Part shown: piece by piece, positions 37,962 to 56,581 of the stretch
How positions within the stretch are numbered: position 1 is the first letter of the stretch
Layout of the letters: every line of letters begins with the position of its first letter
Source of the DNA: Mycobacterium sp. BK086
GTDB taxonomy: Bacteria > Actinomycetota > Actinomycetes > Mycobacteriales > Mycobacteriaceae
Length of the DNA stretch: 64,000 bases
Assembly (NCBI GenBank): GCA_004362315.1
Contig: SNWL01000003.1
Coordinates: 620,001-684,000, forward strand
Direction: 5' to 3'
Program-made: the position numbers and the translations under genes
Notes under the pieces: generated by a model
What the model saw: only the letters and a program-made list of their open reading frames with translations
What the model was told of the DNA's origin: nothing
The model's database searches: none

Positions 37962-38040
37962 ACGCTCATCGTACGGAGGAGGTGGGGTGCCCGAGAAATC
38001 GCGGATTGGTCAACGCTCGGCAAACTGGGGGTTACCTGGG

Positions 38041-38046
38041 TAGGGT
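38041..38046 (+). promoter_or_regulatory. -10 element of the glutamate-transporter operon
   Basis: TAGGGT (TANNNT) ends eight bases before ATG 38055, and no ribosome site intervenes, so the first gene of the operon may be leaderless. No good -35 is visible. Confidence 0.4.
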
Positions 38047-38054
38047 CTGAACGC

Positions 38055-38807: not shown

Positions 38808-38825
38808 GGCGAAAGGAAACACCCG

Positions 38826-39638
38826 ATGGCTTCTCTTTCTTGGCGGCTCGTTGGCGCCGCCGTACTCGCAGTCGCACTGCCATTCGCGGCCACCGCGTGC
38901 GGCGGCGGTGACAGCGGCGACAAGCTGGTGATCGGCACGAAGTTCGACCAGCCCGGTCTGGGGTTGAAGAAGCCGGACGGCACGATGAGCGGCTTCGACG
39001 TGGACGTGGCCAAATACGTCGCCAAGGAGCTGGGCTACCCCGAGGACAAGATCGAGTGGAAAGAATCGCCCTCCGGTCAGCGGGAGAACCTGATCCAGAA
39101 CGACCAGGTGAAGTACATCGTCGCGACGTACTCGATCACCGACGCCCGCAAGGAGAAGGTCAGCTTCGCCGGGCCGTACCTGGTCACCGGCCAGAGCCTG
39201 CTGGTGCGCGCCGACAACTCCGACATCACCGGCGCGGAGTCGCTGCAGAACGGCAAGAAGCTGTGTTCGGTCAGCGGGTCGACCCCGGCGCAGCGGATCA
39301 AGGACAAGTACCCGGGTGTCCAGCTGCAGCAGTACGACACCTATTCGGCGTGCGTGGAGGCGCTGAAGAACGGCGCGATCGATGCGGTGACCACAGATGA
39401 GGTGATCCTGGCCGGATACGCAGCGCAGACGCCCGGCACGTTCAAGATCGTCGGCCAGCCGTTCTCCGAGGAGCGCTACGGGATCGGGCTGAAGAAGGGT
39501 GACACCGCGCTGTGCACCAAGATCAGCGACGCGCTGAAGAAGATGGTGTCCGACGGCTCCTGGAAGGCCGCGTTCGACAAGAACCTCGGCCCGGCCGGGA
39601 TCACCGCTCCGGCCCCGCCCGCACTCGACGCCTGCTGA
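38826..39638 (+). CDS. gluB: Glutamate-type ABC transporter binding lipoprotein
   Basis: A 270-residue substrate-binding lipoprotein. The signal peptide SWRLVGAAVLAVALPFAATA ends in a lipobox before Cys25 (TACGGG). The solute-binding domain has KLVIGTKFDQPGLGLKKPDG, GFDVDVAKYVAKELGY, FAGPYLVTGQSLLVRADN and AVTTDEVILAGYAAQ, all typical of the GluB/GlnH family that delivers glutamate or a related polar amino acid. Eighteen bases separate it from the ATPase gene. Confidence 0.9.
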   Translation: MASLSWRLVGAAVLAVALPFAATACGGGDSGDKLVIGTKFDQPGLGLKKPDGTMSGFDVDVAKYVAKELGYPEDKIEWKESPSGQRENLIQNDQVKYIVATYSITDARKEKVSFAGPYLVTGQSLLVRADNSDITGAESLQNGKKLCSVSGSTPAQRIKDKYPGVQLQQYDTYSACVEALKNGAIDAVTTDEVILAGYAAQTPGTFKIVGQPFSEERYGIGLKKGDTALCTKISDALKKMVSDGSWKAAFDKNLGPAGITAPAPPALDAC

Positions 39639-39650
39639 GACCGCACCGAC

Positions 39651-40331
39651 GTGGAGGTCTTCAGCGAGTATCGCGGCCAGATCTTCGAGGCGTTCTGGAC
39701 CACGATTCAACTCACGGTGTTCTCCGCGATCGGAGCGCTGATCCTCGGCACGGTGCTGGCCGCGATGCGGCTGGCACCGGTGCCGATGCTCAACTGGCTG
39801 GGCACCGCCTACGTCAACGTGGTGCGTAACACTCCCCTGACGCTGATCATCCTGTTCTGCTCGTTCGGGTTGGCGCAGACGCTGGGGATCACGTTGGTGG
39901 ATCCGAAGTCGATGACGTCGATCGAGGACAGCAACTTTCGGCTCGCGGTGCTCGGATTGACGGTCTACACAGCGTCATTCGTGTGCGAGACGGTGCGCTC
40001 CGGGGTGAACACGGTTCCGCTGGGCCAGGCCGAGGCCGCGCGTTCGTTGGGCTTCACGTTCGGCCAGAATCTGCGAATGATTCTGCTGCCGCAGGCTTTT
40101 CGCTCGGTGATCATTCCTCTTGGTTCGGTGCTGATCGCGCTGACGAAGAACACGACGATCGCCTCGGCGATCGGTGTGGCCGAGGCGGCGCTGCTGATGA
40201 AGGGCATGATCGAGAACACCGCGGCGCTGATCACGGTGGGCACCATCTTCGCCGTCGGCTTCGTGATCCTGACGTTGCCGATGGGTCTGCTGTTCGGCTG
40301 GCTGGGTAAACGACTGGCGGTCGTGCGATGA
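39651..40331 (+). CDS. gluC: Glutamate-type ABC transporter permease
   Basis: A 226-residue permease of the HisM/GlnP family with about five membrane segments, including TIQLTVFSAIGALILGTVLA and LTLIILFCSFGLAQTLGI. The cytoplasmic coupling loop is LGQAEAARSLGFTFGQNLRM, the family's EAA motif. Start is GTG 39651. Its stop overlaps the next gene's start as ATGA, pointing to coupled translation of the two permeases. Confidence 0.9.
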   Translation: MEVFSEYRGQIFEAFWTTIQLTVFSAIGALILGTVLAAMRLAPVPMLNWLGTAYVNVVRNTPLTLIILFCSFGLAQTLGITLVDPKSMTSIEDSNFRLAVLGLTVYTASFVCETVRSGVNTVPLGQAEAARSLGFTFGQNLRMILLPQAFRSVIIPLGSVLIALTKNTTIASAIGVAEAALLMKGMIENTAALITVGTIFAVGFVILTLPMGLLFGWLGKRLAVVR

Positions 40332-41191
40332 GTACCGCGTCAGTTCTCTTCGATGCACCGGGCCCACGGGCGCGGGTACGCAACCGCATCATCTCGGTGG
40401 TGACGATTGTCGTTGCCGCACTGGTGATCTGGGCGGTCATCGCGAAGCTGGCCAGCAAGGGCCAGCTGACTTCAGCCAAGTGGCACCCGTTCGTGACGGG
40501 CAACCTGTGGACGACCTACGTGCTGCCGGGTATCGAAGGCACGCTGACCGCCGCGGCCCTGTCGATCGTGCTGGCACTCATCCTGGGGTTTCTGCTGGGG
40601 GTGGGACGGCTCTCGCATGTGGCCTTCATCCGCTGGCCCTCGGCGGTGATCGTGGAGTTCTTCCGCGCTGTGCCAGTGCTGATCATGATGATCTTCGCGT
40701 ACTTCGTGTACGCGCTGTACGACACGTTCCCGTCGAAGTATCTGGCGCTGGCCGGTGTGGTGACGGGTCTGACGCTCTACAACGGCGCGGTGATCGCCGA
40801 GATCGTGCGTGCCGGCGTCGGTTCGCTGCCGCGGGGACAGAGCGAGGCCGCGTCCGCGCTGGGGTTGCGCTGGGGACAGACGATGCGGTCAATCCTGTTG
40901 CCGCAGGCTATTACCTCGATGCTGCCGGTGCTGGTGAGCCAGCTCGTGGTGGTGTTGAAGGACACCGCGATCGGGTATCAGATCACGTTCGTCGAGATGG
41001 TCCGCCAGGGCACGGTCGTCGGGTCGTCGTACGGCAATTACGTTCCCGCGCTGATCGTGATCGCGGTGTTGATGATCAGCGTGAACTTCGCGTTGTCGGT
41101 AGCGGCGACGCGGCTGGAGAAACGGCTACGGCGGTCCAAACGGACGGCTGCGCCGATGCATGCGCAGGCGGCGTTGGAGCCCGGAGACTGA
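40328..41191 (+). CDS. gluD: Glutamate-type ABC transporter permease
   Basis: A 287-residue second permease, a partner of the preceding one. It has an N-terminal basic segment, membrane helices (IISVVTIVVAALVIWAVIAK, LTAAALSIVLALILGFLLGV, VLIMMIFAYFVYALYDTF) and the EAA loop RGQSEAASALGLRWGQTMRS. The C-terminal cytoplasmic tail is basic. It ends the operon and converges on the minus-strand accessory cluster with three bases between stops. Confidence 0.9.
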   Translation: MSTASVLFDAPGPRARVRNRIISVVTIVVAALVIWAVIAKLASKGQLTSAKWHPFVTGNLWTTYVLPGIEGTLTAAALSIVLALILGFLLGVGRLSHVAFIRWPSAVIVEFFRAVPVLIMMIFAYFVYALYDTFPSKYLALAGVVTGLTLYNGAVIAEIVRAGVGSLPRGQSEAASALGLRWGQTMRSILLPQAITSMLPVLVSQLVVVLKDTAIGYQITFVEMVRQGTVVGSSYGNYVPALIVIAVLMISVNFALSVAATRLEKRLRRSKRTAAPMHAQAALEPGD

Positions 41192-41194
41192 CCC

Positions 41195-44100
41195 TCAGAC
41201 CGAGACGGAAAGCGGGCTGAGCAGGGCGCCGAAGGGTGTCTCGAAGACCACACTGAATTGCGCCCCGATGCCTCCGAGAGCCAACGGGTCCACATTCAAC
41301 TCCGGCTGCAGCGGTGTCACCGCTCCGGCCGCCACCTCCAGCAGAGCGCCGCTCGCCGCGCTGTACACGTGCATCACGAACGTGGGGGCGCCCGGCACCA
41401 GCTGCGGTAGGTCGGTGGCCCGAACGTGCACGGGGCCGGCCACTTCCGACTCCGCCCCGACCCCGGGTTCGACACCGTCGACGTCGATCCAGGCCGGAAC
41501 CGAGATCGGGCCCCACGGCGATTCGACACGGTCGCCCTGCGGTCCTGTCGCGCTCAGTTCCGGCGCGACGACCACGTCGACGCCGGGCACCACCATGTCT
41601 TCGTCCGGATAGCGCACCGCGACGGCGACCCCGGCACGCGACCACGCCGGCACGTGGATGGTCGCCGTCCCGGCGAACACGGCCGCGTCGGCCGGCGACG
41701 GCGCCAGGTCCGCGACGGCGATCTGTGGCCAGAACCAGGGGTCGCCGTCGGTCGATGCCTCGACGAATCGCGCCTGAATCGGTTCCTGCGCATAGCGATT
41801 GAGCACTGCGGCCTGGACGCCGCGAACGACGACCGTCGCGGTCACCGGAATGCCCGCGGCTTCGGCTTCGCCGGCCCGGGTCAGTGTCAGCTCAGGAGTG
41901 GGCGGCACCTCGTCGTAGGGCACCACGACGAACACCGGCTTGACCGACGCGAACGGCGGCTCCACACCGTCGCGGACGACGCGGCCGGCCGTGTCGAGTT
42001 CGGCCGTGACCGGGACCGCACGGGCGGCGAGGACGTCGACGGTGCCCGCAGGTACGTCGAGACGGGCGGTGGCCACGCCGGCCTTCACCGGGACCGGCTC
42101 GGACACTGCCAGCATCGAGGCTGCTCGCGCGGTCGCCGGATTCTGCACGTTGAGCTGTTGTGCGCGAGCCGCTCTGGTCGCCGCCGTCAGCGGGTTCAGG
42201 GCCGCCGCGGTACGTAGCGCCGATTCCGACGCCAGGTAGAACCGATAGGCGCCGTCGTCACGCGGGGCCCGCACCGTGAGCGTCACCGACACGCTCGGGT
42301 CGGCGGCGCGCCGCGATGTCGCCAGCATGTGCGGGGCGACGGTGGGTGGGCGCAAGGCGCGCGAGTCACTGGTGTCGAGTTCGAATGTGACTGTGCCGGA
42401 GCGTGTTCCCGCATTGTCCTCGGCATCCGCCTCGATGGTGACGCGGTGGTGCTGCCCGGGAACCGTTGCCGGTGCCGGGAATTCGGCACGCACCAATAGC
42501 GCGGCAGCATCCGGGCCCGCCACGATCCCGGTTAGGTCCAGCGTCGGCATGACTGTGCCATCGGCGCGCCAGTTGACGCGCCGCAACGGTAACGCTCCCG
42601 GCACGGTCGCCGTGGGCACCCGGAACCGCACGTGTACGACTCCCGGGGAGGCCGGCGCCGCGCCGGCCGGGGTCTGGCGGGCCAGGCCGGCGTCAATGGT
42701 GGGCGGTGCCGGTGGCAGCGGGCCGGGCGGATACAGATCGATGCCGGCCGGGTCACCCCATCGCCCAATCCAATCGCTCAGAGCGACAGACCAGGTGATG
42801 GGGACCATCGTATCGCCGTCCGGAACGTCTTGGCTACCCGCCAATGTCGAGGCGCCGGTGTCGTCGTCCCACCCGGGAAGCAGCGGGGCGGCTAGACCGG
42901 TGCCGTCGATCTCGGGGTGCAGTGTCTGCGGCTGCGGGTCGACGCGCAGGAACGCCACCGGCGACCGCGGGACGGGTCCACGCAAGGCGTAGGCCGTCCT
43001 GGGCGGCGCACCGATGACGATGGTCTGCTCCCAGCGCCGCGGCTCGTCGGGTGCCCATCTGGGCCCGAACGGCGGCGGTGCCAGAACCGGCTGGACGGGA
43101 CGCGACGGGGTGACCCCGGCGAAGTACGGCAAGGGAACGTGAGCCAAAAATACTGCGGGAGACCCGAATTCAGGATGAGATGGCCAGGACTCGACCTCCT
43201 TGAGAAGGTCCAGATAGGCACCACCGGCACTGATGCGGTCGTCATAGATACCGTCGTCAGTTGCGTTGTCGGCCAACGTGACACCGACAGGCAGACGCCC
43301 GCGATAGAGGTGCAGAGGAACCGTCGCCAACAGCACGCCCTGCCACGGCGCGTTGACCAGTCCGTGTGGCAGTATCCCGGACCGGCCCAGCCAGCGCGCC
43401 ACTCCAGGATCGAGTGAGCCGACGCCGAGCGCTGCCGCAGCCGTCTGGGCCGCGACCACCCGGTACGACTCCCCCGGATCGGTACTCGCCGCCTCGATCA
43501 GGCCACGCGCGTCCGAGCCAAGCGCGTCATATGCCATGTGCACCCAATCGTTCACCGAGTTCCCGGATCTGGCGATCTGCTCCGCCCGGCGCAGCTCGTC
43601 GTCGGGACTCCAGGGGCCGCCGGGGTCGTTGAGGGCATAGGGCACCGGTTGCCGGGGCGCGGCCAGCGCGATCCGGTCCTTCCAGGACGCCAGGATGCCG
43701 GGGCTGGTGAAGCCGTGAAGCGGCAGGATGTCATCGGGCGGTGCGTGAACCTGCGGATCGCCGGGGATGTCGCCGATGTCGGCCGCGAAATCGGTGGGCA
43801 ACACGAAGAACGACGACTCGATGATGCGGCCGTCACCGCTCACCACCAGGCCGGCCATGTCGTGAGCGGCCACGGCGTACGGTTCCCGATCGCGCGCGGA
43901 TATCTCCACGTAGGCGCCGCCGACCGCGACCCGGCCTGAGATTGCCGCGACGCGCAGATTACCTTCGCCCTGGATCAGCGCCCAGCCGACCATCGCGCCG
44001 GGCGGCGTGCGCGGCAGCAGCAAAACCGGCGAGTCCGGGGTGACGCGCAGGCCGGGCTCTGGTGGCTGTTGCGTGGCGGCGTCAATCGCTTCCACCCCGA

Positions 44101-44269
44101 CCGGGTCCTCGACCCGCAGGTGGCGCAGCAGGATTGGACCGGCGGGCAGGTCCGTCACACCCCCCGGGGTGACTCGCCAGTACAGGCCTTCGGGCACGCT
44201 GTCCTCTTGGCCGGCGTCGATGTAGGCCGCCTCGCCCAGCGCGACGATCGAATGACAGAACTCGCTCAT
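41195..44269 (-). CDS. 1024-residue protein of unknown function, last gene of the accessory cluster
   Basis: I do not recognise this protein. It has no signal peptide or membrane segment. Much of it is proline-, valine- and alanine-rich with short beta-strand patterns and repeated phrases such as RVTPDSPVLLLPRTPPG, FELDTSDSRALRPPTVAP, VSVTLTVRAPRDDGAYRFYL and VVVRGVQAAVLNRYAQEPIQ, which look like Ig- or fibronectin-like domains, especially after residue 600. The middle (about 240-300) has a helical stretch (AQTAAAALGVGSLDPGVARW). Its ATG overlaps the stop of the 1702-residue gene as ATGA, so the two large proteins are translationally coupled and probably work together. It could be a surface or secreted scaffold exported by a non-Sec route; that is a guess. 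Confidence 0.75.
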   Translation of the reverse strand: MSEFCHSIVALGEAAYIDAGQEDSVPEGLYWRVTPGGVTDLPAGPILLRHLRVEDPVGVEAIDAATQQPPEPGLRVTPDSPVLLLPRTPPGAMVGWALIQGEGNLRVAAISGRVAVGGAYVEISARDREPYAVAAHDMAGLVVSGDGRIIESSFFVLPTDFAADIGDIPGDPQVHAPPDDILPLHGFTSPGILASWKDRIALAAPRQPVPYALNDPGGPWSPDDELRRAEQIARSGNSVNDWVHMAYDALGSDARGLIEAASTDPGESYRVVAAQTAAAALGVGSLDPGVARWLGRSGILPHGLVNAPWQGVLLATVPLHLYRGRLPVGVTLADNATDDGIYDDRISAGGAYLDLLKEVESWPSHPEFGSPAVFLAHVPLPYFAGVTPSRPVQPVLAPPPFGPRWAPDEPRRWEQTIVIGAPPRTAYALRGPVPRSPVAFLRVDPQPQTLHPEIDGTGLAAPLLPGWDDDTGASTLAGSQDVPDGDTMVPITWSVALSDWIGRWGDPAGIDLYPPGPLPPAPPTIDAGLARQTPAGAAPASPGVVHVRFRVPTATVPGALPLRRVNWRADGTVMPTLDLTGIVAGPDAAALLVRAEFPAPATVPGQHHRVTIEADAEDNAGTRSGTVTFELDTSDSRALRPPTVAPHMLATSRRAADPSVSVTLTVRAPRDDGAYRFYLASESALRTAAALNPLTAATRAARAQQLNVQNPATARAASMLAVSEPVPVKAGVATARLDVPAGTVDVLAARAVPVTAELDTAGRVVRDGVEPPFASVKPVFVVVPYDEVPPTPELTLTRAGEAEAAGIPVTATVVVRGVQAAVLNRYAQEPIQARFVEASTDGDPWFWPQIAVADLAPSPADAAVFAGTATIHVPAWSRAGVAVAVRYPDEDMVVPGVDVVVAPELSATGPQGDRVESPWGPISVPAWIDVDGVEPGVGAESEVAGPVHVRATDLPQLVPGAPTFVMHVYSAASGALLEVAAGAVTPLQPELNVDPLALGGIGAQFSVVFETPFGALLSPLSVSV

Positions 44270-47200
44270 GCCCGTACCGCCTTGATCGGTCCCTGCAGGA
44301 ATCGTGGCACAGGCTCCACCCGTACCCGGCGCTGGAACGCCGTGCCTCGGTCATCGGCGGTCACGACCAGCGCCGCGGGCGCGGCCGGCGCGCTGGGTTG
44401 GTGCCGCAACCACAACACTCGGGTGCCGCTGCGCGACGCCCGCATTACCGGGAACACGGTGCCATCGAGCGCCGCCGCGTGAATTCCCATGCGTCCGGGC
44501 CGGTTCAGTGGTTCTGAGGATTCCAGCAGCAGGCCGGCCACGCCCCACCGCCCCGCGGAGAGCGCCCAAAGCACGGTGCTGCGTGGCGCCGGAACGGGCC
44601 GCAGCGGAGGCAGTCCGAGCGCGGCCAGGGTCTGTTCGAGTTCGGCGTCGTCGGCGATCGAACCGTCGGCGAGGCCGGCCAGTGCGCCAGGGGCGCCGTC
44701 GCCACCGTTGCCGATCGGCACGTCCCCGTGCGCGGTCGGTGTCGACGCCAGCGCCAGAGCGCTGTCAGCCAGCTGGAATGCTTCGATCAGTTGCGTCGGG
44801 CCGGCGTATGCCGACGTGGTGAAGGTGACGCCATCCAGTTCCGGGTCACCCAGCGTGAATGTCTGACCGGTCAGCGGCAAGCCGACGGACAACTCGTACG
44901 GGGTCAGCGGTTGCAGGGGCAGGTTGCCGCTGAGCTGCGCACCGTCGGGCAGCGACTGGCACCCCGCAAGGCCGGCCGCCTTCGCCAGCAGGTCGGCCGC
45001 CGACAGTCCCGGCCCGTGCACTCCGGCGGCGAGGATCGCGGCCTCGAGTCCGGGGATCAGGAAGATGTGCGGGCTGTTGCTGCGGTCGGTCCGCCGCGCG
45101 GCAAGGCCGATGGCGCGACCCATTGTGGTGGCCAGTTGCGCGATGTGCGGTGCGCGAAATGTCGCCGTCACCGGGTCGCCGGTGAAGTGGAACGGCTCGT
45201 GATCGGCTGGGGTGTAGCCATCCAGATAGCGCGACAGAAAGCCTGGATCGAATCGGTCGACACGCCTGGATGTTGTCTTGTACGAGACGATCTCGGCGTT
45301 CTTCTTCCATGCCGCGACGACGGTGTCGCCCCACGGCGTGTTGTCGACGGCTCCCGCGACACCAGATTGGGCCGCGTTGACTTTGGGATCCTTCCCAGCG
45401 GTGCGGAAGAACCAATGCACCGTGCGCTCATCGGTCGCCGTCGAGTTGGTCTTGGCGTCGACGCGATCGTGGTAGGCCAGTGTGGCGGTGATGCGGTACT
45501 GGCTGGCCGCGTCGAGCACCACGCGGCCGGACCCATCGACAAGAGTGTCCGGCGGCAAGGCGGCCAGGGCGGCGGCGTCCGACGCCGAGGAACTCGCGCC
45601 GTCGTACATCGCTGCGGCGAGCGCGTACAGTCCGAGGATCGCCAGGGGGCGTAGCGCGCGCGAATTGAGTTCGGCCCCAACCGCACTGGACTGCCCATGC
45701 TGGGCGAGATGCACGCGCCAGAGGCCCGCACCCACCGGCTCGATCGGTGCGGGGCGGCTGCCGGTAGCGGTGAATACGGTGGCGCTCCCCCACGGCGTGT
45801 CCTCGTTCTCGCGGCCGGTATCGACCAGCAGGTAGCCCTCGGCGACCGGCTCCCGCAACTCGACGGTGTGCCGCGCATCCGGATGCCGTTCCTCGAGGAC
45901 CGCTGACGTGCGCCCCCACAGCCGCAGCGCCCCGTCGAAGGACGCCCCGTCGGCGTCGACCGCCTCGGCGAAAGCCACGACGCCGCCATCGTCGATCCAC
46001 CCGGTCTCACTCAGGCCTGCCAGCAGATCGCCCGGGTCGTCGGCCGGGCTGACGATGTCGAATCCGACGGCACGGCTGAAATTCGGCCACCCTGTGGGGA
46101 ACCCGATCTGGTTCTCCCGGGGCAAGACCCGCCACGATCGCCGTTGCGGTAGCCGGCGCGCGTCAGCGCCGTAGGTCCATGCCGCTTCAGCGTTGGGGTG
46201 CCAGTGGCATTTGTCGGCACCCTGGGCGACGTTGGGCGGAATGCTGCCGTCGGCCGGGGGCGCCTGATGTACCAGCGAGAGCCCTTGTTGCACGGTCAGT
46301 AGGGCGAGCTGCCGCTGGTCGGAGGTGACGGCCGATGGCGCGTCGGGAGCGACATCCGAGGGGATCTGCCAGGCGGACACGGTGTTCAGCGGTACCCCGG
46401 TGGCCCCGGCGTTGGTGATCCTCTCCAGCGCAACCCGCGTGAGATGCCATTCATGTTGGAAGCGTCCCGATCCGGACAATCCGGCGTGGACTTCGTTGCG
46501 TACTCCGGCCGCGGTGTCGACGACGGGGGCGATCGGGAAGGTCAGCAGCGGGATGGTGTCGGGCCATACCGTCGGCGTCGATTGCCAGCCCCCTGCAGGC
46601 GTGTCGCCGTTCTCGAACACCAGATGTCCGGCCGCGGGTTGGTTGGGATCGGTGAGCAGCCGGCCGATGCCGTCGGCCAGCGTGACCGTCGGCAGTGGCC
46701 ACGGATCCGGTGGCGGCGCTTGGGTCAATGCTGTGGTGTCGCTGCCGATCTCGATGCAGCCTTTGAGTTCGGTGAAGAACAGGTCGACGACGGCACACAC
46801 TTTGAAGTGCAGATCCACGTGGCCTTCCGACAGCAGCATCGTCGCGGTCGCGGAGACACCGATGCGGAACGGCCCCAGTCCGACAGCGCCGTCGAGGTGG
46901 CCCTGCGCCCACACGGTGACCGGGCGGGTTCCGATCGCGGCGATCAGGCTGGCCGACACTTCGGCCCAGATGACGGGTTTGACCCCGAACACCTGACGGA
47001 ACCCGATCCCGGCGGCAACCGCAAAACCGTTGAGGGTCTGGTTGGTTCCGGCGAGTTTGTCGATTCCGTTGCCCCGGATCATCAGGAACGCCCACCCCGC
47101 GTCGACCTGTAGGGGGCCCAGCCCCGGGAAGACGACGGCCTTCACGGGTCCGGGGGGCCGGCCGGTGTGCACCCCGCCGATGCCGTCGTCGGAGCCGAGG

Positions 47201-49374
47201 TGCAGCCACCAGCTCGCGGCGTCGAAATGTCCGGCGGCCGGGATGTCCATCTTGAACAGGTAGGGCACGCTCAGGTGGGCTTCGAGACCCATGTCGAGCG
47301 CATTCTTGTTGGCGGACAGGCCGCCCAACACTGTGAGACCAGGGGTGTTGTCGTCGGTTTGGATCTGGTCGCGGTCGGGCACCAGGTTGTGACGCTGTTG
47401 CACGAAACCGGCGTCCAGGCCGATACGTAGGGCGAAGTCCGGCACGGTGACTCCGACAACGCCTAGCGCGTTGGCGGTGAAGCCGTCATCGACGGCGGTG
47501 CCCACTACGACGGCGGCGCCGAGGGTGAGATCGCCGGGCGGCGGAAGCAGTCCGTCGTCTGCCCAGGGCCGCCAACGGCGCAGTGACTTCATTGGGTCGG
47601 CCGGGTCGGCCAGTGGGATTCCGGAGTTCGTGGCGATCGTGGCCGCCAGTGAGAACAAGCCAAGACCTGTAGGCCCCAACAGAATCGGAGCAGGGAGATC
47701 AACACCGGCCGAGAGCTTCACCTGTGGTCCGTCGAGCGCCACCGCGACAAAGGCATTGACGCGCAAGGGCACGATCTGGGCCCACAGGTCGACGTCGAGC
47801 TTCTCGGCAACGGTCACCTTACCGCCGCCGCGCAGCACACCGGGCAACTCGACGGAAGCATCCAACCCACGCAGGCCGATATCGGGAGTGAGGGCACCGT
47901 CAGCGAACGTCGCGCGGATCGTCGCTCCGGAGACTCGGACCGGGCCGAGATCCACGGTGAAGCGCAGATCCACTTCGAACCAGCTAGACCCGGAGCCGCC
48001 GCGGCTGCCGATCACCTCGAACAAGTTGCCGGGGCCGTCGACGACCCAGCCGCCGGGGTCGACGACATCCGGACGCGCCCCCTGGAGATCGACTTGTATC
48101 GCATCCTCGATCGATGCCGCCGCCACATCGATCACCGCGCGAATGCTGCGCCACCGCACCCGCATCGGACGGCTCATTCCGATCTTGAGCAGCGGCTCGA
48201 CTTTCCATTCCTTGGCCTGCACCGCGCCTTCGAAATCCAGGGTCACCGGCACCTTGCCGTCGGTGGTAGATGCCTGCAGGGTCACACCGTGCAGCACCAT
48301 TCCGCCCAAGGACGCGAATGCGGGACCGAAACCTCGTGCCGCGGCGTACAACAGACCCAGTGCCGCGATCCCTTGAGCGCCACCGCGGGCTGCCATCGCG
48401 GTCCCGAGCACCGTGGTGACGCCGGCCGCGATCGCCGCCGCATCCCCGGATTCGCCGATATGGGCCAGCCCGGCGATCCCATCGGATTCCGCCGTCACCG
48501 CGACCTGCACCGCGGCCGGATCTTCCGGCGGGCGTGAGGCAGTGACACGCACCCGAATCGTCTCGGGCACATGCGGTCCTGTTGCGCCGAACGGTGAACC
48601 GCCACCGGGCAGCTCCAACACGGCCGATATCGCGATGGGCACCAGGTCGGACAACGATGCACGCGTCCCGAGGTGGAAGGTCACGGTGCCGGAGACGTGC
48701 GGACCATCCGGTCCCGCCGGAGTGCGCGGCACCTGCACAGTGATATCGGTGCCGTGCGCGACGGCGGACAGGTCGACGGGCAGTACCAGGCCACCGACGA
48801 TGGGAAGTGCTGTGGGGAGGATCAATTCGATCGCGCCAAGCGCCGGGCCACTGTTGCTCAGCGCAATCTCGGAGCTGGGCAGACTCAGTCCGAAGCCCCC
48901 GGGAAGCACCAGGTGACGCGACGACAGAACCGCGCGGGCACCGGCATCCGGTGTCACGCTCGTGGGATGCGCTGGTGAGCCGCTGATGACCAGGTCCCCG
49001 GCGAATGCGACCGTCATCGGTGCACCGCTCGGCGTCATCGAGGCGCGGGGCGGTTCGGTGGCCAGATCATCGCGGTTCGCGGCCTGCACCTCGGCGATCG
49101 GCGTACCGGCGCCCGCAACGGCGCCGGTGACCCGCACGACGAAACCGCCACCGCCCCCGGCCGGTTGAGACAGCGTGCAGTGCACCGTGCCGCTGAGCGG
49201 GGAATCCAGTGCGCCCGGGATGCTGGCCCCGGAGCCTGTGGCATCGAATGCCCCGCCGGCCGGCGGGAACGGCCCGTCGACTGTCAACGAGTCGAGCACG
49301 GTCGCGATATCGGCAGGCACGACCGTGCTCGCCGCGATCAGGTTCTGACGGATGACGTCGAGCAACGAGTTCAT
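44266..49374 (-). CDS. 1702-residue beta-rich protein of unknown function (weakly DUF6603-like)
   Basis: I do not recognise this protein with certainty. It lacks a signal peptide and clear membrane helices. Residues 1-900 are rich in alternating hydrophobic/glycine strands (GGFGLSLPSSEIALSNSG, LLGPTGLGLFSLAATIATN, GFAVAAGIGFRQVFGVKPVI, GLGPFRIGVSATATMLLSEG), giving a repetitive beta-sheet pattern that recalls the DUF6603 proteins of actinobacteria. After residue 900 the sequence becomes mixed, with a segment AVVDLFFTELKGCIEIG at the junction, then globular stretches to the end. It starts 19 bases after the M14 carboxypeptidase gene and is coupled to the 1024-residue gene. Length and absence of frame breaks show that it is under selection. 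Confidence 0.78.
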   Translation of the reverse strand: MNSLLDVIRQNLIAASTVVPADIATVLDSLTVDGPFPPAGGAFDATGSGASIPGALDSPLSGTVHCTLSQPAGGGGGFVVRVTGAVAGAGTPIAEVQAANRDDLATEPPRASMTPSGAPMTVAFAGDLVISGSPAHPTSVTPDAGARAVLSSRHLVLPGGFGLSLPSSEIALSNSGPALGAIELILPTALPIVGGLVLPVDLSAVAHGTDITVQVPRTPAGPDGPHVSGTVTFHLGTRASLSDLVPIAISAVLELPGGGSPFGATGPHVPETIRVRVTASRPPEDPAAVQVAVTAESDGIAGLAHIGESGDAAAIAAGVTTVLGTAMAARGGAQGIAALGLLYAAARGFGPAFASLGGMVLHGVTLQASTTDGKVPVTLDFEGAVQAKEWKVEPLLKIGMSRPMRVRWRSIRAVIDVAAASIEDAIQVDLQGARPDVVDPGGWVVDGPGNLFEVIGSRGGSGSSWFEVDLRFTVDLGPVRVSGATIRATFADGALTPDIGLRGLDASVELPGVLRGGGKVTVAEKLDVDLWAQIVPLRVNAFVAVALDGPQVKLSAGVDLPAPILLGPTGLGLFSLAATIATNSGIPLADPADPMKSLRRWRPWADDGLLPPPGDLTLGAAVVVGTAVDDGFTANALGVVGVTVPDFALRIGLDAGFVQQRHNLVPDRDQIQTDDNTPGLTVLGGLSANKNALDMGLEAHLSVPYLFKMDIPAAGHFDAASWWLHLGSDDGIGGVHTGRPPGPVKAVVFPGLGPLQVDAGWAFLMIRGNGIDKLAGTNQTLNGFAVAAGIGFRQVFGVKPVIWAEVSASLIAAIGTRPVTVWAQGHLDGAVGLGPFRIGVSATATMLLSEGHVDLHFKVCAVVDLFFTELKGCIEIGSDTTALTQAPPPDPWPLPTVTLADGIGRLLTDPNQPAAGHLVFENGDTPAGGWQSTPTVWPDTIPLLTFPIAPVVDTAAGVRNEVHAGLSGSGRFQHEWHLTRVALERITNAGATGVPLNTVSAWQIPSDVAPDAPSAVTSDQRQLALLTVQQGLSLVHQAPPADGSIPPNVAQGADKCHWHPNAEAAWTYGADARRLPQRRSWRVLPRENQIGFPTGWPNFSRAVGFDIVSPADDPGDLLAGLSETGWIDDGGVVAFAEAVDADGASFDGALRLWGRTSAVLEERHPDARHTVELREPVAEGYLLVDTGRENEDTPWGSATVFTATGSRPAPIEPVGAGLWRVHLAQHGQSSAVGAELNSRALRPLAILGLYALAAAMYDGASSSASDAAALAALPPDTLVDGSGRVVLDAASQYRITATLAYHDRVDAKTNSTATDERTVHWFFRTAGKDPKVNAAQSGVAGAVDNTPWGDTVVAAWKKNAEIVSYKTTSRRVDRFDPGFLSRYLDGYTPADHEPFHFTGDPVTATFRAPHIAQLATTMGRAIGLAARRTDRSNSPHIFLIPGLEAAILAAGVHGPGLSAADLLAKAAGLAGCQSLPDGAQLSGNLPLQPLTPYELSVGLPLTGQTFTLGDPELDGVTFTTSAYAGPTQLIEAFQLADSALALASTPTAHGDVPIGNGGDGAPGALAGLADGSIADDAELEQTLAALGLPPLRPVPAPRSTVLWALSAGRWGVAGLLLESSEPLNRPGRMGIHAAALDGTVFPVMRASRSGTRVLWLRHQPSAPAAPAALVVTADDRGTAFQRRVRVEPVPRFLQGPIKAVRA

Positions 49375-49393
49375 CTACTCACCCCGTAGTCGT

Positions 49394-50602
49394 TCAGATC
49401 GCGGACAAGAGCCCGAACAGCGCGGCGTGGATCTCTCGTTCCACCTTGGGGTATTGCATGCTCGAATCGGGCCAGTATCCGCCGTCGTCGTCATCGGGGT
49501 CCGACGGATTTTGCCCCAACTCCCAGCCGGCTTCCAGGGTGAACGTGTGGGTGTTGAGCAACAGCGGATCGGCGAATTGACGGCTGAACGTGAAGTCGTC
49601 GAATGCGCCGGTGGTCGGATACAACAGCGAGGACGGCTGCGGGATGTAGGTCGAGCGTTGGATTGCCGTGGCGTCACTTCCGGCGGATGCCGCGATCGCC
49701 GTCGCCATCGAGGCGGCCAACGACTGGTGCCGCGACAGCAACGGTCCGCGGGCATCCGCGAAGTTGTCGGGGATGTACTCGGCGTAGGTGCCGTTGGGCA
49801 CGACCCCGTCGCGCTGGAAATCGAACAACGGGTTCAGGAAGCTCTGCGTCTGGTCGACAGACTGGTTCTGTTCAATTCCCCACGGGTACAGGATGGTTCG
49901 CCCGAACATGTGTACGTCCACCAGGTAGGTGATACCCGTCTGGGTGATCAGCTCCATGAGGTTCATCGTTTCGGGCTCGATCGACGGTCCATCCGGCGGC
50001 GGCGCCACGGTGTAGCCGCGGAAGATCTCACTGCACGGATTCTTCGACGTGTGGGCTGCCGGTGCCGCGGCGGGCGAATAGTAGATGTCCTGATCCCAGG
50101 CGATCGGGAAGTTCCGATTGAGGTCCACGCCCTCGCACCCCGGGCCGGGACGGCGGTTCTTGCGCCACAGCCGGTTGAAGGATGCGCTGCTGGACAAAAC
50201 CAAGTCACGGCCATCCGGATTGACGCAGGGCACTACGTACAGGTCGATCGTGCTGAAGATGGCATTGACCGTCGCAAGCGGTATGACGAACTCGTCGTAG
50301 ACCACCCCGGTGGCGTCGGTGAACGCGGGATAAGTGATGTCGGTTCCGTTGGTGAACGCGCTCAGCAGCTGGTTGCAGAACGACAACAGCGCATCAGGTG
50401 GCGCCAGCTCGCGGCTGTGGACGCCGCCGGTGAAGAGCACCGGTATCGCGTCCGCGACTCCCGTGTTGATCTTGACGAACGGTACCGGCTGATTGTCCTG
50501 GGCGGTCAGGTGATTGAGGGTGAAGCGTGTGCAGTTGAACGAGAAGTTTGCCTCGAGTGCGGTGACCGCATTGGCGATCGCTGCGGATTTCTTGTAGGCC
50601 AT
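49394..50602 (-). CDS. M14 family zinc carboxypeptidase
   Basis: A 402-residue M14 metallocarboxypeptidase. Zinc ligands are His62 and Glu65 (GGVHSREL) and His231 (YLVDVHMFG); the substrate-binding set is VNPDGRD, NRLWRKNRR and GVDLNRNFP; the catalytic glutamate is probably Glu357 (FTLEAGWE). Unlike most relatives it has neither signal peptide nor N-terminal propeptide in the same chain. ATG 50602 is preceded by AGGAAGAAGG. The gene just upstream encodes an 82-residue protein that resembles such a propeptide. The cluster also has an M64 peptidase, so coordinated proteolysis of a shared target is plausible. Confidence 0.88.
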   Translation of the reverse strand: MAYKKSAAIANAVTALEANFSFNCTRFTLNHLTAQDNQPVPFVKINTGVADAIPVLFTGGVHSRELAPPDALLSFCNQLLSAFTNGTDITYPAFTDATGVVYDEFVIPLATVNAIFSTIDLYVVPCVNPDGRDLVLSSSASFNRLWRKNRRPGPGCEGVDLNRNFPIAWDQDIYYSPAAAPAAHTSKNPCSEIFRGYTVAPPPDGPSIEPETMNLMELITQTGITYLVDVHMFGRTILYPWGIEQNQSVDQTQSFLNPLFDFQRDGVVPNGTYAEYIPDNFADARGPLLSRHQSLAASMATAIAASAGSDATAIQRSTYIPQPSSLLYPTTGAFDDFTFSRQFADPLLLNTHTFTLEAGWELGQNPSDPDDDDGGYWPDSSMQYPKVEREIHAALFGLLSAI

Positions 50603-50621
50603 CGCCCGCCTTCTTCCTGAT

Positions 50622-50870
50622 CTATTCGTCTTCGATCTGGTTGTCGATGGCATCCCACCGCTGCTGCAGTGCGACCTCGTCACGAAGAATCGAGACCTCG
50701 TAATCCAGTGCCACCAACGTGTCGAGCGTTTCGACCGGCGCGTAGGCGACGACACTCCATTGCCCGTCCGCCACCTCACTCGCCGTTGCCCGAACCAAGG
50801 ACACGTCAGCGACGGTGACCAAACCGGCCATCGCTTCTTGTGTGCCGCTGATCAATGCGCATGCGACCAT
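50622..50870 (-). CDS. 82-residue protein, possible stand-alone propeptide of the M14 enzyme
   Basis: A small acidic protein of 82 residues. Its second half, VAYAPVETLDTLVALDYEVS followed by ILRDEVALQQRW, resembles the N-terminal propeptide of M14 carboxypeptidases, where a strand is followed by a helix ending in a L..LGYEV..L motif. It lies 19 bases upstream of the M14 gene, which lacks a propeptide. It may therefore fold or inhibit that enzyme in trans. This is inference from weak similarity; it could instead be an unrelated small structural protein. Start ATG 50870; no signal peptide. Confidence 0.6.
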   Translation of the reverse strand: MVACALISGTQEAMAGLVTVADVSLVRATASEVADGQWSVVAYAPVETLDTLVALDYEVSILRDEVALQQRWDAIDNQIEDE

Positions 50871-50891
50871 TTCGGCCCCGCTTTCGGTTGG

Positions 50892-52637
50892 TTACCAGAT
50901 GTGGTCGATCGCCGCGGTGCCGTCAGCACCCTTGTAGGCAACCTCGTACGGCTCGTCGCCGATATGCAGCTGAGCAAACAGGCTCCAGCCGGGTTGCCAA
51001 TTGCGATATAGCAACGTGTCCACGCCGGTTCCGTCCGGCCGCACTCGGTCCACCGACATCAGCCCGTCGCCGGCGCGATAGGCAACGTAGAAGGTGTCGC
51101 CGAACCGGGTGAACGGTGTGAAGGCGGTCCAGCCCGGGCTCCAGGTGAAGTTGGCGGTCGTGGTGACGTCTTGGCCGTCCGGTGAAATCCTGCACAGTTG
51201 GGCTCTTCCGGCGGCGGTGTCATAGAGAAGCAGCCGCTGGCTGGGTCCGGTACTCAGCGGCACGAAGTGGGTCCAGCCCGACGACCATGTCGACCCCATC
51301 GTGTTCTTGAATCCCGAACCGTTGGACAGCAGCTGATCGATCGCCACACTGCCGGTGGCTTGTTTGTACGACAGCAGGAACTGGTTGCCGCCCAAAGTGA
51401 ATGGCGTGAAGTGTGTCCACCCGGTCGACCAGTTCGCCGTCCACCGAGTAGTGACATCAGCCCCGTCGGCGCTGACGTCGTCCAGTTCGACCCCGCCCGT
51501 CGACGCGCGGTAGAGCAGCAGATGCGCTCCGGCCGTCGACTTCAACGCGGTGATGCCGGTCCACTTGCCACCCCACGTCGACCCCATCCTGTTGTCCCAG
51601 CCGCTGGCATCCGCGCGCAACCGGTCGATACTGACGCCGCCGCTCTGCAGCTTGTAGGACAACATGTGGCACACACCGGCCAGGTCAAACGGAACGAAAT
51701 GCGTCCATCCCAGCGACCACCCCTCCCGTAAGACTTCTTCAGGGCGGTGCGCGAAGCGGGACAGGGTTCCTGAGATTTGTTTTTGGCACACCGGGCAGAA
51801 CGGTGCGGCGAGAGTCTGCATCTTGCAGTCGTAGGACGGGCGGAAAATACCGCAGTGGAAGTTCAATCCGCCTTCATAGGCACCGACATCGCGCGGACCC
51901 AACGGATTGGCACGCGTATCGCAATGAGTGCAGTTCGGATTCTTCAACGTGGGCAGTGCGGTGTCTGCCACGGTGAGCGAGTCGTGCCACTTGACCGTCG
52001 ACCATGCCGTCGACGCTGTGATGTTGGCCTGAGACGGCTCGCCGCCGGTGTAGGCGTCATGCGCCGGGTCTGTTTCGCCACACCCTTTGTAGGTCGGATA
52101 CTCGTCCGCGAGCCCAAAGGACGAATGACCCATTTCGTGGATCGCGATGCGCGCGGAATCCGGGTGCAGTGAGAAGGTCGCGACTTTGCCGCCCGAACCT
52201 CCGTATTGGGGGCTGTTGACCAGCAGCATCGGCTGACTCGTCTGAGGCAGCGCGGCCTTGGCCGCCGCCTCGACCCTGTCGGCGTCCGCACGGTGCGGAC
52301 CGAGCAGTCGGTGTATCTCGCCGTCAAGGCAGAACGTCGAGTCGAAGAATGTGCGGGCGACAGCACCGGTTCCCCGACACGGTTCCCCGGCCGGATCATC
52401 GGCGCCGGCATCGGTGGATGTGACGTCGAGGCGGTACACGTTGATGGCCGTTCGGTAGATATCGAAGGGCGGCGTTGCGAAAAGGGTGTTGACGAACTGT
52501 AGGACACCGGCGGCGAAGGCCGCCTGGTCGACTTCCCGGAAGCCATCGGCGGCAACCATCACATTGAAGCGACGCGCGGCAGGTCCGTGTTCTCGTACGA
52601 TTTGGCTGCCGATGATGGCGCCATCGTGTTCAGTCAT
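50892..52637 (-). CDS. M64-type metallopeptidase with six C-terminal beta-propeller-like repeats
   Basis: A 581-residue protein. Residues 1-300 form an M64 (IgA-peptidase-type) zinc peptidase: RFNVMVAADGFREVDQAAF at the start, YRLDVTSTDAGADDP, and the zinc site HEMGHSSFGLADEY (His167, Glu168, His171, then Asp178/Glu179). Cysteine pairs (NCTHC, FCPVC) could bind a second metal. Residues 305-581 hold six repeats of about 48 residues with a W..GWTHF.PF...LLSYK..TG.V.ID pattern, like blades of a lectin-type propeller. There is no signal peptide. ATG 52637 follows AGGA. The peptidase plus binding-module layout suggests action on a polymer or surface target. Confidence 0.85.
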   Translation of the reverse strand: MTEHDGAIIGSQIVREHGPAARRFNVMVAADGFREVDQAAFAAGVLQFVNTLFATPPFDIYRTAINVYRLDVTSTDAGADDPAGEPCRGTGAVARTFFDSTFCLDGEIHRLLGPHRADADRVEAAAKAALPQTSQPMLLVNSPQYGGSGGKVATFSLHPDSARIAIHEMGHSSFGLADEYPTYKGCGETDPAHDAYTGGEPSQANITASTAWSTVKWHDSLTVADTALPTLKNPNCTHCDTRANPLGPRDVGAYEGGLNFHCGIFRPSYDCKMQTLAAPFCPVCQKQISGTLSRFAHRPEEVLREGWSLGWTHFVPFDLAGVCHMLSYKLQSGGVSIDRLRADASGWDNRMGSTWGGKWTGITALKSTAGAHLLLYRASTGGVELDDVSADGADVTTRWTANWSTGWTHFTPFTLGGNQFLLSYKQATGSVAIDQLLSNGSGFKNTMGSTWSSGWTHFVPLSTGPSQRLLLYDTAAGRAQLCRISPDGQDVTTTANFTWSPGWTAFTPFTRFGDTFYVAYRAGDGLMSVDRVRPDGTGVDTLLYRNWQPGWSLFAQLHIGDEPYEVAYKGADGTAAIDHIW

Positions 52638-52645
52638 TGCGCGTC

Positions 52646-53047
52646 CTAGAGTTCGACGGTGGCCAACGCGACTGCCGCGATGCCCTGGTCGTTGTCCACC
52701 GGGTCGGGCCCAAAGATGACGAGGGTCGTGGCGTTCCCGAGCGCCGGCGTGAGCAAGTCGAACGAACCAGCTGACTCATCACTCTTCGCACGAACGAAAG
52801 TTCCATCCTCGGTGGGTATTTCGTAGTGCGGAGACATCGGGTTTTCGGAGATCCTGCGGAAGAGCACAGCATCGTTTGTGTCGCGTAGCTCGTACCAGAA
52901 CCCGGCGAAGCCACTGATATCGTCAGTCCGGTCAGACGGGCCAGTACGCATTTCCACGTTGGCGACGTCGGTGACCGCGAGCGCCGCGCCATCGAAGGCC
53001 ATGCTGAATCGCCATGTCAGGTCTTGGCTGGGAGGGTCGTCAGGCAT
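52646..53047 (-). CDS. 133-residue protein of unknown function, first gene of the accessory cluster
   Basis: I do not recognise this acidic, beta-rich protein (for example LTWRFSMAFDGAALAVTDVA, GFAGFWYELRDTNDAVLF). It has no signal peptide, membrane segment or cysteines. ATG 53047 is chosen because AGGAG lies six bases upstream; the frame is open to 53089. It ends eight bases before the M64 gene, so it probably heads the same transcript. It may be a chaperone, carrier or structural partner of the peptidases; nothing in the sequence decides. Confidence 0.65.
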   Translation of the reverse strand: MPDDPPSQDLTWRFSMAFDGAALAVTDVANVEMRTGPSDRTDDISGFAGFWYELRDTNDAVLFRRISENPMSPHYEIPTEDGTFVRAKSDESAGSFDLLTPALGNATTLVIFGPDPVDNDQGIAAVALATVEL

Positions 53048-53242
53048 TGCGCTGCTCCTGCCTATTTGGTATCCGTATTCCGTTGTCACACAGCAATATC
53101 AGGAGATAGCGGCCCGTTTTGCCGAGCAAGCACATCGCCGCCAGATCGGTTGCACATGACGATCCCCCTCCCCGCAGGTTCGATGTCGATGACCCGAACA
53201 CTGCCCCCCGTTCACGATAGGACGGCGGAACAAGCCCGCCAC

Positions 53243-53258
53243 AAGTAGCGGCCTACTT
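53243..53258. terminator. Candidate hairpin in the gap before the accessory cluster
   Basis: AAGTAG-CGGC-CTACTT is a perfect 6-bp inverted repeat 45 bases beyond the stop of the minus-strand oxidoreductase gene. It could end that transcript before the cluster promoter. The rest of the gap (53048-53302) shows only a weak TATCGT -10 candidate on the minus strand. Confidence 0.35.
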
Positions 53259-53302
53259 AAAAACGCGAGCTTCCCCACGTAGCACGATGAGTAGTACGAA
53301 GG

Positions 53303-54124
53303 TCAGAGTGCTGCGCACCGCTCCAACAGCTCGGCTGGCGGCGGCTGGTAGAAGCTCAATACCGCATGCTCACAGCCCAGCTCCGCGAACTGCGGCAGCA
53401 GATCCAACTGCTCCTCGACCTGCTCGGGTTGGTCCGGATACAGGAAGACCTGAACCGAGCGGCGGATCGTGGCAGGGTCCCGGCCGACCTCTTCGCACGC
53501 CTCGGTCAGCCGCACACTCGCATCGCCCCAGAGCTGCGGGGCGCCATGGCTGGGCATGTTCCATTCGTCGGCGTGACGCGCGATGACCCGCAACATCTTG
53601 GGCTGCGATCCCCCAACGACGATCGGGGGGTGCGGCCGCTGGATCGGCTTGGGTTCGCAGAGCGCGTCATTCAGCGTGTAGAACCGGCCCTCGAACGCGA
53701 CCGTCTCCTCGGTCCACAGCCGGCGGATCACCGTCAAAGCCTCGTCCAGCATCGCGACTCGCGTTCCCGCACTGGGAAATTCGATGCCGTACCCGAGATG
53801 CTCGGCCTCGTGCCAGCCCGCCCCGATACCGAAGTCCAGCCGCCCACCACTGATGTGATCGACGGTGACAGCCATCTTCGCCAGGATCGCCGGGTTGCGA
53901 TACGTCACGCCGGTGACCATGCAACCGATGCGGGCTCGCTGGATCACCACCGCCATCGCGGCCAGCATTGTCCACCCCTCGTGCGTCGGTGCGGCGTTCT
54001 CGGCCAAACCGTAGAAGTGGTCGTAATTCCAGATCGCCTCGAAGCCGAGCTCGTCGGCAGCGCGCCAGAACTGCTCGAGCTCGGGATAGGTGAACGTGGG
54101 TGCGAGCTTGGCCGAGATCCGCAT
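53303..54124 (-). CDS. LLM-class F420-dependent oxidoreductase
   Basis: A 273-residue luciferase-like TIM-barrel protein. Typical stretches are AADELGFEAIWNYDHFYGLA near the start, TGVTYRNPAILAKMAVTVDH, ISGGRLDFGIGAGWHEAEHL and PHPPIVVGGSQPKMLRVIAR. This class usually uses coenzyme F420 in mycobacteria; the substrate is unknown. Start ATG 54124. It diverges from the DJ-1-like gene, with 87 bases between them. Confidence 0.88.
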   Translation of the reverse strand: MRISAKLAPTFTYPELEQFWRAADELGFEAIWNYDHFYGLAENAAPTHEGWTMLAAMAVVIQRARIGCMVTGVTYRNPAILAKMAVTVDHISGGRLDFGIGAGWHEAEHLGYGIEFPSAGTRVAMLDEALTVIRRLWTEETVAFEGRFYTLNDALCEPKPIQRPHPPIVVGGSQPKMLRVIARHADEWNMPSHGAPQLWGDASVRLTEACEEVGRDPATIRRSVQVFLYPDQPEQVEEQLDLLPQFAELGCEHAVLSFYQPPPAELLERCAAL

Positions 54125-54211
54125 GCCTGCAGCCTACGTTGGCAAGATCCCATCGCCAGCTGTCAACCGCGCCACTGTTGGTGACCGGCCGCTGCATCCG
54201 ACGATGTCGGC

Positions 54212-54868
54212 ATGCATGCACAGATAGTCCTGTTCGACGGATTCGATCCCCTCGACGCCATCGCTCCCTTCGAAGTGCTCGCCGCCGGTAGCGATGCCGT
54301 CGGCGGCGAGCTGGTGGTCGAGATGGTCACTGCCGAAGGCCCGCGGCCCGTCACAAGCGGCACCCGCGGGTTGGTGATCGAAGCCACCGGTCAGCTCGAC
54401 CCCGCCAAGCCGGGCTACATCATCGTGCCCGGCGCGTCCGGACCCATCGAGGGCGATCCCGACGAGGGTGTCGAGACCATCCCGGTCCTGCTGGCCCGAT
54501 TTGGCGAAACCGCGGCAGTCCCATTGCTGCGCAAGGCGTTCGACAACCCGGACATCACGGTGGCCACGGTCTGCGGCGGGTCGCTCGCGTTGGCGATGGC
54601 GGGACTCATCGAGGGCCGCAACGCAAACACCCACCACCTCGGCATCGACGTCCTGGAAGCCACCGGCGCCACGCCGATCCAGGCCAGGGTGGTCGATGAC
54701 GGCGATCTGGTGAGCGCCGGCGGCGTGACATCGGGCCTGGACCTCGCCCTGCACCTGCTGCACCGAAGTTATGGTCCCCGAGTGGCTTTGGCCGTCGAGG
54801 ACATGTTCGCCTACGAGCGGCGCGGAACGGTGTGGACCAACACCGGCCGAGTCCCGGTGGCGGTGTGA
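54212..54868 (+). CDS. DJ-1/PfpI family protein
   Basis: A 218-residue DJ-1/PfpI/ThiJ-type protein. The nucleophile elbow is VATVCGGSLALA (Cys about 115), preceded by the conserved glutamate-bearing strand (MHAQIVLFDGFDPLDAIAPF, with the family's acidic residue in the PFEVL turn). Relatives include isonitrile hydratases and the sensor domain of GlxA-type regulators, but no DNA-binding domain is attached. Its stop overlaps the next start as GTGA, so the two genes are probably co-translated. Confidence 0.85.
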   Translation: MHAQIVLFDGFDPLDAIAPFEVLAAGSDAVGGELVVEMVTAEGPRPVTSGTRGLVIEATGQLDPAKPGYIIVPGASGPIEGDPDEGVETIPVLLARFGETAAVPLLRKAFDNPDITVATVCGGSLALAMAGLIEGRNANTHHLGIDVLEATGATPIQARVVDDGDLVSAGGVTSGLDLALHLLHRSYGPRVALAVEDMFAYERRGTVWTNTGRVPVAV

Positions 54869-55176
54869 GCATCCTCGGCGACTGGGACGTCGCGATCAAG
54901 ACTCCAATCGGCACACTTCATGTCGTCTACAGCTTCACCCAACACGACGAAGGCGTCGCCGGAACCGCGGCGGGCAAGGACGAAACCGTGCCGCTCAGCG
55001 ACATCGTCGTCGCGCCAACAGCCGACGGCGAACGAGTCACCTGGCGTCAAACCGTCACCAAACCAATGCGATTGAAGCTTGATTTCGACGTGCAGGTGCA
55101 CTCCGACCAACTGAAAGGCCACTCCCGCGCTGGCCGGCTACCCCGAACCGCGGTCACCGGCCAACGCCGAACCTGA
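54865..55176 (+). CDS. 103-residue protein of unknown function
   Basis: A small, likely beta-rich cytosolic protein (LGDWDVAIKTPIGTLHVVYS, VTWRQTVTKPMRLKLDFDVQ). The strand pattern suggests a small barrel or lipocalin-like fold that could bind a ligand. I do not recognise a named family. GTG 54865 overlaps the DJ-1-like stop (GTGA); the frame is open to 54832. It is probably functionally tied to the DJ-1-like protein. Confidence 0.65.
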   Translation: MSILGDWDVAIKTPIGTLHVVYSFTQHDEGVAGTAAGKDETVPLSDIVVAPTADGERVTWRQTVTKPMRLKLDFDVQVHSDQLKGHSRAGRLPRTAVTGQRRT

Positions 55177-55211
55177 CCCGAGCCAGCCAGTCGCAAAGGT
55201 ATCGTCAGCGA

Positions 55212-56498: not shown

Positions 56499-56581
56499 GC
56501 CGTGATTCTCTTCACTACCGGCGATCGCGGGGTTGCGCGGTGTCGCACGGTGGGTACCCGTTGCCGCGGAGGGATACCGAC

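Follow-up and report, generated by a model that had tools for sequence, protein, structure and literature searches.

The six genes described here lie on the minus strand of a 64,000-nucleotide stretch of contig SNWL01000003.1 of Mycobacterium sp. BK086 (the window) and encode a protein of 133 amino acids (aa), an M64 metallopeptidase, an 82-aa protein, an M14 carboxypeptidase and two giant proteins of 1702 and 1024 aa. Our favoured, if tentative, reading is that this cluster is an operon gained by horizontal transfer, encoding a modular system that combines a giant scaffold with exchangeable hydrolases. All six open reading frames (ORFs) and their spacing, as given in an earlier note on this DNA, were found again, the coordinates yielding intergenic gaps of 8, 21, 19 and 19 bases and then a 4-base overlap. 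The features are as follows:

52646..53047, minus strand: 133-aa protein, no Pfam match
50892..52637, minus strand: M64 metallopeptidase, 581 aa (PF09471)
50892..51725, minus strand: C-terminal repeat domain of the M64 protein, aa 305–581 (self-comparison)
50622..50870, minus strand: 82-aa protein (69 aa if started at 50831), with likeness to an M14 N-terminal module
49394..50602, minus strand: M14 zinc carboxypeptidase, 402 aa from its ATG (PF00246)
44266..49374, minus strand: 1702-aa giant, without Pfam model, treated as a remote DUF6603 relative
47605..47955, minus strand: DUF6603-aligning stretch of the 1702-aa protein, aa 474–590 (hhalign)
41195..44269, minus strand: 1024-aa companion giant, the next gene downstream after the 1702-type one
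41190..53312, no strand: extent of the accessory stretch (blastn collinearity with genome G004)

The strongest link between a hydrolase and the giants is provided by M64. Genes of this family are rare, being present in 10 of 371 actinobacterial genomes including the host's own, and in three of these ten (the own genome, G204 and G419) the only M64 gene found adjoins a giant. Apart from the own genome, 16 with a giant were searched, and M64 occurred only in G204 and G419 of these, where it is located directly upstream of a DUF6603 gene; a small gene precedes M64 in the window as well as in both of these genomes. Since G204 and G419 share a genus, this amounts to two independent cases. Inspection by eye revealed no giants of these kinds around M64 in five of the seven other M64-bearing genomes (L068–L072), G224 and G445 being left out of this inspection; G224 gave no match to PF20248, the DUF6603 model.

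The main rival explanation, which we consider unlikely, is that a peptidase cassette was co-inserted by chance, i.e., two independent accessory modules in one insertion, with the four genes for the 133-aa protein, M64, the 82-aa protein and M14 sharing a transcript with the giants but no joint function. In favour of this, the four upstream genes have a G+C content of 0.60–0.63 and the giants of 0.69–0.70 (0.645 and 0.657 for the two flanking genes measured), so that the cluster may be composite, and the giant pair occurs without those four genes at the loci of five other genomes of the genus. However, G204 and G419, which belong to another class of the phylum, show the same succession of small gene, M64 and giant, and the M64 genes at these places are the only ones found in the two genomes; the tight spacing of 8–21 bases likewise speaks against this rival.

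The two giants themselves are a conserved unit. Profile searches detected the 1702-aa family in 6 of 297 congeneric genomes, counting the own one, and in a single one of 396 genomes across the phylum, namely the own genome. In all five other genomes of the genus and on plasmid pAMI4 of Paracoccus aminophilus, the 1702-type gene is immediately followed by one of the 1024 type, with conservation of the pair reaching down to about 25% identity. For M64, M14 and the 133- and 82-aa proteins, no tblastn match at E 1e-3 was obtained in the fetched loci of these five genomes or of Paracoccus, and M64 is absent from the five genomes also by whole-genome search, M14 having been searched at the loci only. 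The earlier note had suggested that the giants could make up a scaffold or container that matures only with the help of both M64 and M14. While the single operon layout would suit such a role, the pair persists elsewhere without both peptidases, so that the giants hardly need them for maturation and we regard this proposal as highly improbable. Co-occurrence, which the note proposed to test, did not hold for the full set of six genes, homologues of which are scattered, but it did for the giant pair and, in G204 and G419, for the small gene–M64–giant order.

Neighbours of the pair vary within the genus, including a trypsin-like gene in G056 and a divergent M23 gene in G659. G021, G602 and G618 lack a hydrolase within 150 bases of the pair; a PF00144 serine hydrolase is encoded 372 bases upstream of it in G021 and 172 bases upstream in G602. 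The giants have ABC transporter genes as flanking neighbours both in the window and in Paracoccus, those of the two sites being of different kinds. Searches against solved structures gave no match for either giant alone, nor for the 1702-type and DUF6603 profiles. Residues 182–200 of the 1702-aa protein form a 19-residue stretch with a mean hydropathy of 1.95 that contains prolines and, judging the alignment by eye, is kept in the G056 relative and missing in that of G021.

Several candidate relationships of the giants were dismissed. Weak Ig-domain profile matches of the 1024-type (10 sequences, best E 0.0015) were read as generic beta-sandwich similarity. With regard to a phage origin, the 1702-aa protein was unmatched in phages, with nothing of note in PHROGs and nothing in three viral-contig scans. 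A match in a betaproteobacterial metagenome-assembled genome (L010; 39% identity over 69 residues) was taken as chance and lies within a gene that looks ParA-like by a motif. A match in G095 (L006) spans 57 residues with an internal stop, and tblastn at E 1e-2 remained empty across its 20 kb (L013).

Beyond the genus, relatives of the 1702-type were detected on plasmids of Rhizobium tropici (probability 100%, 1222 columns), Azospirillum (99.5%, 418 columns) and Mycetohabitans (99%, 329 columns), the last of which is annotated as DUF6603 though the present Pfam model misses it at E up to 1. When eight 1702-type proteins were compared with seven DUF6603 proteins by hhalign, a probability of 95% was obtained (E 3.6e-8 for that single comparison; 119 columns, 22% identity), as opposed to 0.05–0.08% in three comparisons involving companion families. 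Because of this difference, the 1702-aa protein is treated here as a divergent remote relative of DUF6603 and not as a member; PF20248 gave no match for it at E up to 1 and none in the own genome. Eleven DUF6603 loci were found among 396 genomes. Apart from the remote homology, they share with the cluster very large companion genes and, at some of them, M64, M23 or other hydrolases beside the giant; they differ in that the 1702-aa protein fails the PF20248 model and in that the companions are unrelated at a detectable level. For the 1024-aa protein, profile comparison with other companions detected no shared ancestry. Distant giants gave weak OmpA-like and LamG-like matches, all below cut-offs, e.g., an OmpA-like stretch inside the Rhizobium giant (L025, 12070–19512; E 0.0021), which hints at peptidoglycan contact.

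Hydrolase-type genes other than M64 also stand beside such giants. Overall, 10 of 22 loci carry one when those hydrolases are counted that belong to the giant's gene run or lie no more than 150 bases from the giant. These loci comprise 11 of the 1702 type (the window, L009, L011, L012, L021, L022, L023, L025, L026, L046 and L047) and 11 with DUF6603 (L038–L045 and L052–L054). The common site of G021, G602 and G618 was counted three times, two of four Mycetohabitans records were included, and L052, a 3.4-kb contig that cannot show neighbours, was counted as a miss; the Pfam scan covered part of the loci's neighbours, and genes in unannotated loci were called by a codon-usage script with approximate starts. 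The ten cases are M64 and M14 adjoining the giants in the window, M64 at L044 and L045, a divergent M23 gene at L023, phospholipase D (PLD) at L026 and L047, a PLD-like end of a 1087-aa protein at L025 (a pairwise match, with the HxK motif missing) and, each below the Pfam cut-off, a trypsin-like gene at L011, a beta-lactamase fold (MBL) at L038 and a PhoD-like gene at L043. Each enzyme tested contains its signature motif, with one motif considered per enzyme, except for L025 and for the L041 M23 protein, which has the HxH half only. Widening the rule to about 1.1 kb raises the count to 13 of 22 by adding the M23 gene of L041 at 986 bases and PF00144 serine hydrolases 372 bases upstream at L012 (from the scan) and 172 bases upstream at L022 (by similarity), the latter two of which look as if they belonged to the host's own genomic context.

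One M23 subtype is common to G659 (L023), at a distance of 103 bases from a giant of the 1702 type, and G382 (L041), where 986 bases separate it from a run of DUF6603 genes; the two genes show 46% identity over 121 residues. M23 was seen together with a PG_binding_1 domain. Two of the loci without a hydrolase within 150 bases have other features: L040 shows WD40 repeats, and L039 (G355) carries two Hcp-family genes (PF05638; 13912–14517 and 16701–17309) near a 3233-aa DUF6603 protein.

Both peptidase assignments of the earlier note were borne out. The M64 protein matches PF09471 (E 8e-35, 120.9 bits vs. a cut-off of 26) and PDB entry 4df9 (E 6.7e-21 across aa 18–291), with HEMGH at position 167 as HExxH motif. 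Its catalytic domain (about aa 15–299) is followed by about six 48-residue repeats (aa 305–581), self-comparison peaking at offsets 48 and 96, and the repeat length suggests that this domain is possibly a six-bladed propeller. The M14 protein matches PF00246 (E 1.5e-35, 123.7 bits vs. a cut-off of 21.6) and carboxypeptidase A4 in the PDB (E 2.5e-13), contains HSRE at position 62 as HxxE motif and has no N-terminal module of its own; the longer ORF, of 461 aa, starts at 50779. Catalytic domains and zinc motifs are thus those of the M64 IgA-peptidase and M14 carboxypeptidase families, from which the cluster enzymes differ by the lack of a visible leader, the operonic position with giants, the M64 repeat domain and the separately encoded M14 N-terminal module.

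The spacing, together with hydropathy and motif scans, agrees with the earlier description of a single operon-like unit whose products carry no visible leader for export: the scans, which were crude and involved no dedicated predictor, detected neither a Sec-like N-terminus nor a lipobox in the cluster proteins. The first 35 residues of the M64 protein contain one RR pair without the leader-typical hydrophobic stretch behind it, and of the pattern of type VII (ESX) substrates, a WxG helix-turn-helix with YxxxD/E towards the C-terminus, a scan found just WxG, scattered over internal sites of the M64 and 1024-aa proteins. Signal-like N-termini are present in three of six other actinobacterial M64 proteins tested (L048, L049 and L068) and missing from that of the window, and the N-termini of giant-adjacent hydrolases are less hydrophobic than those three, except for L025 (1.98 vs. 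1.97–2.32). Leaderless-looking M64 proteins of about 685 aa were also noted in two families of the phylum (L069, 4280–6328; L070, 9669–11729), each adjoined by a gene for about 295 aa. On a Caballeronia plasmid (L089; 4995–7115 and 8001–10892), an M14 protein with a long C-terminal extension stands beside a divergently encoded met-zincin-like protein, both matches being below cut-offs.

In Pfam, NCBIfam, PHROGs and PADLOC, the 133- and 82-aa proteins and both giants gave no match near the cut-off. The 133-aa protein is clearly related to the product of the small gene directly upstream of M64 in G204 (L044), with a Smith–Waterman z of 10.4 and none of 500 shuffles scoring as high, and the small genes of G204 and G419 are mutually related (z 9.8). 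M14 pro-domains are known to inhibit or chaperone carboxypeptidases. The 82-aa protein, for which an alternative start at internal Met14 (giving 69 aa) is possible, aligns with aa 1–105 of an M14 protein of Paraburkholderia aromaticivorans (z 7.0, 0/1000 shuffles), as opposed to a z of −0.04 against the catalytic part of the same enzyme. By these scores, it resembles the N-terminal module of this related M14 enzyme, but is encoded by a gene of its own instead of being fused.

Following the favoured reading, the giants could build a large particle, probably of elongated shape, or a surface-bound scaffold that carries or positions hydrolases, the hydrolase serving as an exchangeable warhead. In the cytosol, the peptidases might be silenced by the 82-aa protein, and perhaps by the 133-aa protein too, as separately encoded pro-domains or chaperones, and the complex would act outside the cytoplasm, on the own envelope, on neighbours' surfaces or on external polymers, after an exit by a non-Sec route, e.g., lysis or an unknown exporter. 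The M23 gene with PG_binding_1 and the weak OmpA-like and LamG-like matches fit such an outside target. A broader claim, which we hold to be doubtful, is that DUF6603-clan giants and their companions form the core of an undescribed, phylum-crossing and phage-independent megacomplex with interchangeable hydrolases kept inactive by separate pro-domains, of which the window would harbour a two-peptidase version. If true, DUF6603 would gain a testable role, namely as the scaffold on which a modular complex, encoded in Actinomycetota and by plasmids of proteobacteria, carries its enzymes; leaderless M64, M14, M23 and PLD genes near giants would gain a context, and a concrete pro-domain hypothesis would be available for the 82- and 133-aa partners. 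DUF6603 itself is catalogued but apparently unstudied.

Several observations weigh against the scaffold reading. At twelve of the 22 loci, no hydrolase was recognised within 150 bases, and four of the ten hydrolase calls (L011, L038, L043 and L025) are weak. Independent cases are fewer than loci, as not only G204 and G419 but also L026 and L047 share a genus, and the background rate was measured for M64 alone and not for other hydrolases. The cluster contains no secretion gene, and the M64 proteins of L069, L070 and L071 are likewise without a visible leader while no giant is nearby. Comparison of the 1024-aa profile with the companions at DUF6603 loci, and with those of Rhizobium, Mycetohabitans and Azospirillum, detected no relationship. 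Finally, similarity of the 133-aa protein to the small gene product of G419 (last 167 residues compared) is marginal (z 2.6, 8/500 shuffles), an unrelated control reaching z 2.1 (16/500 shuffles).

An improbable alternative is an intracellular conflict or defence system, in which the giants would sense or bind an intruder and a leaderless hydrolase would be the effector harming the infected cell or the invader. The effector-like exchange of enzyme types, the accessory distribution and the lack of visible leaders are compatible with this, but an M23 enzyme with a peptidoglycan-binding domain makes little sense intracellularly, PADLOC gave no match at E up to 1 for any of the six proteins, and no nucleotide-binding domain is among their Pfam matches. 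Still less probable in our view is a polymer- or lipid-handling complex, in which the giants would bind a hydrophobic or polymeric substrate for digestion by the hydrolases for nutrition: the LamG-like and OmpA-like hints and the degradative enzyme mix would suit it, but no single type of transporter or catabolic gene recurs at the loci looked at, even the ABC transporters being of different kinds.

In line with the earlier note, none of the searches made brought up a described system that combines these genes. Extracellular contractile injection systems (eCIS) such as Photorhabdus virulence cassettes (PVC) combine large structural genes with exchangeable enzymes, often with a metallopeptidase domain nearby (PMC8213781). 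The cluster resembles them in its big genes, swappable enzymes and close metallopeptidase but differs in that its six proteins have no tube, baseplate, DUF4157 or AAA family match in Pfam. The contractile sheath family PF04984 was found in none of six genomes, own genome included. The Hcp tube protein of type VI secretion (PF05638) gave no match in the own genome and was found in one of the six, G021, whose Hcp-family gene (G021:C29:140454-140840) lies on another contig than the giant pair. Polymorphic toxin systems likewise feature peptidase domains and exchangeable catalytic modules (PMC3482391). Peptidases and interchangeable catalytic parts are common to both, but the cluster enzymes are mostly separate genes instead of C-terminal tips, and Pfam revealed no toxin-trafficking domain. 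In the open literature searched, which leaves most subscription literature outside, no paper was found on DUF6603 or PF20248; nor was one found in open literature on M64-peptidase operons in actinobacteria or IgA peptidase M64 gene clusters.

The patchy distribution and the alternative content at the corresponding site of G004 show that the cluster is accessory to the 6.93-Mb host genome. By blastn collinearity, G004 has 1.95 kb of other genes in place of the 12.1-kb cluster, with flanks collinear to window positions 36838–41189 (89% identity) and 53313–54136 (82% identity), and the cluster is also missing from G002. The window contains no tRNA gene, and no convincing flanking repeats were found. 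A second stretch (54137–57155) is missing at the G004 site as well, so that the variable region exceeds the cluster; it carries a DJ-1/PfpI-type gene (54212–54868) and, at 55212–56498, a gene whose product looks, by a motif, like a cytochrome P450.

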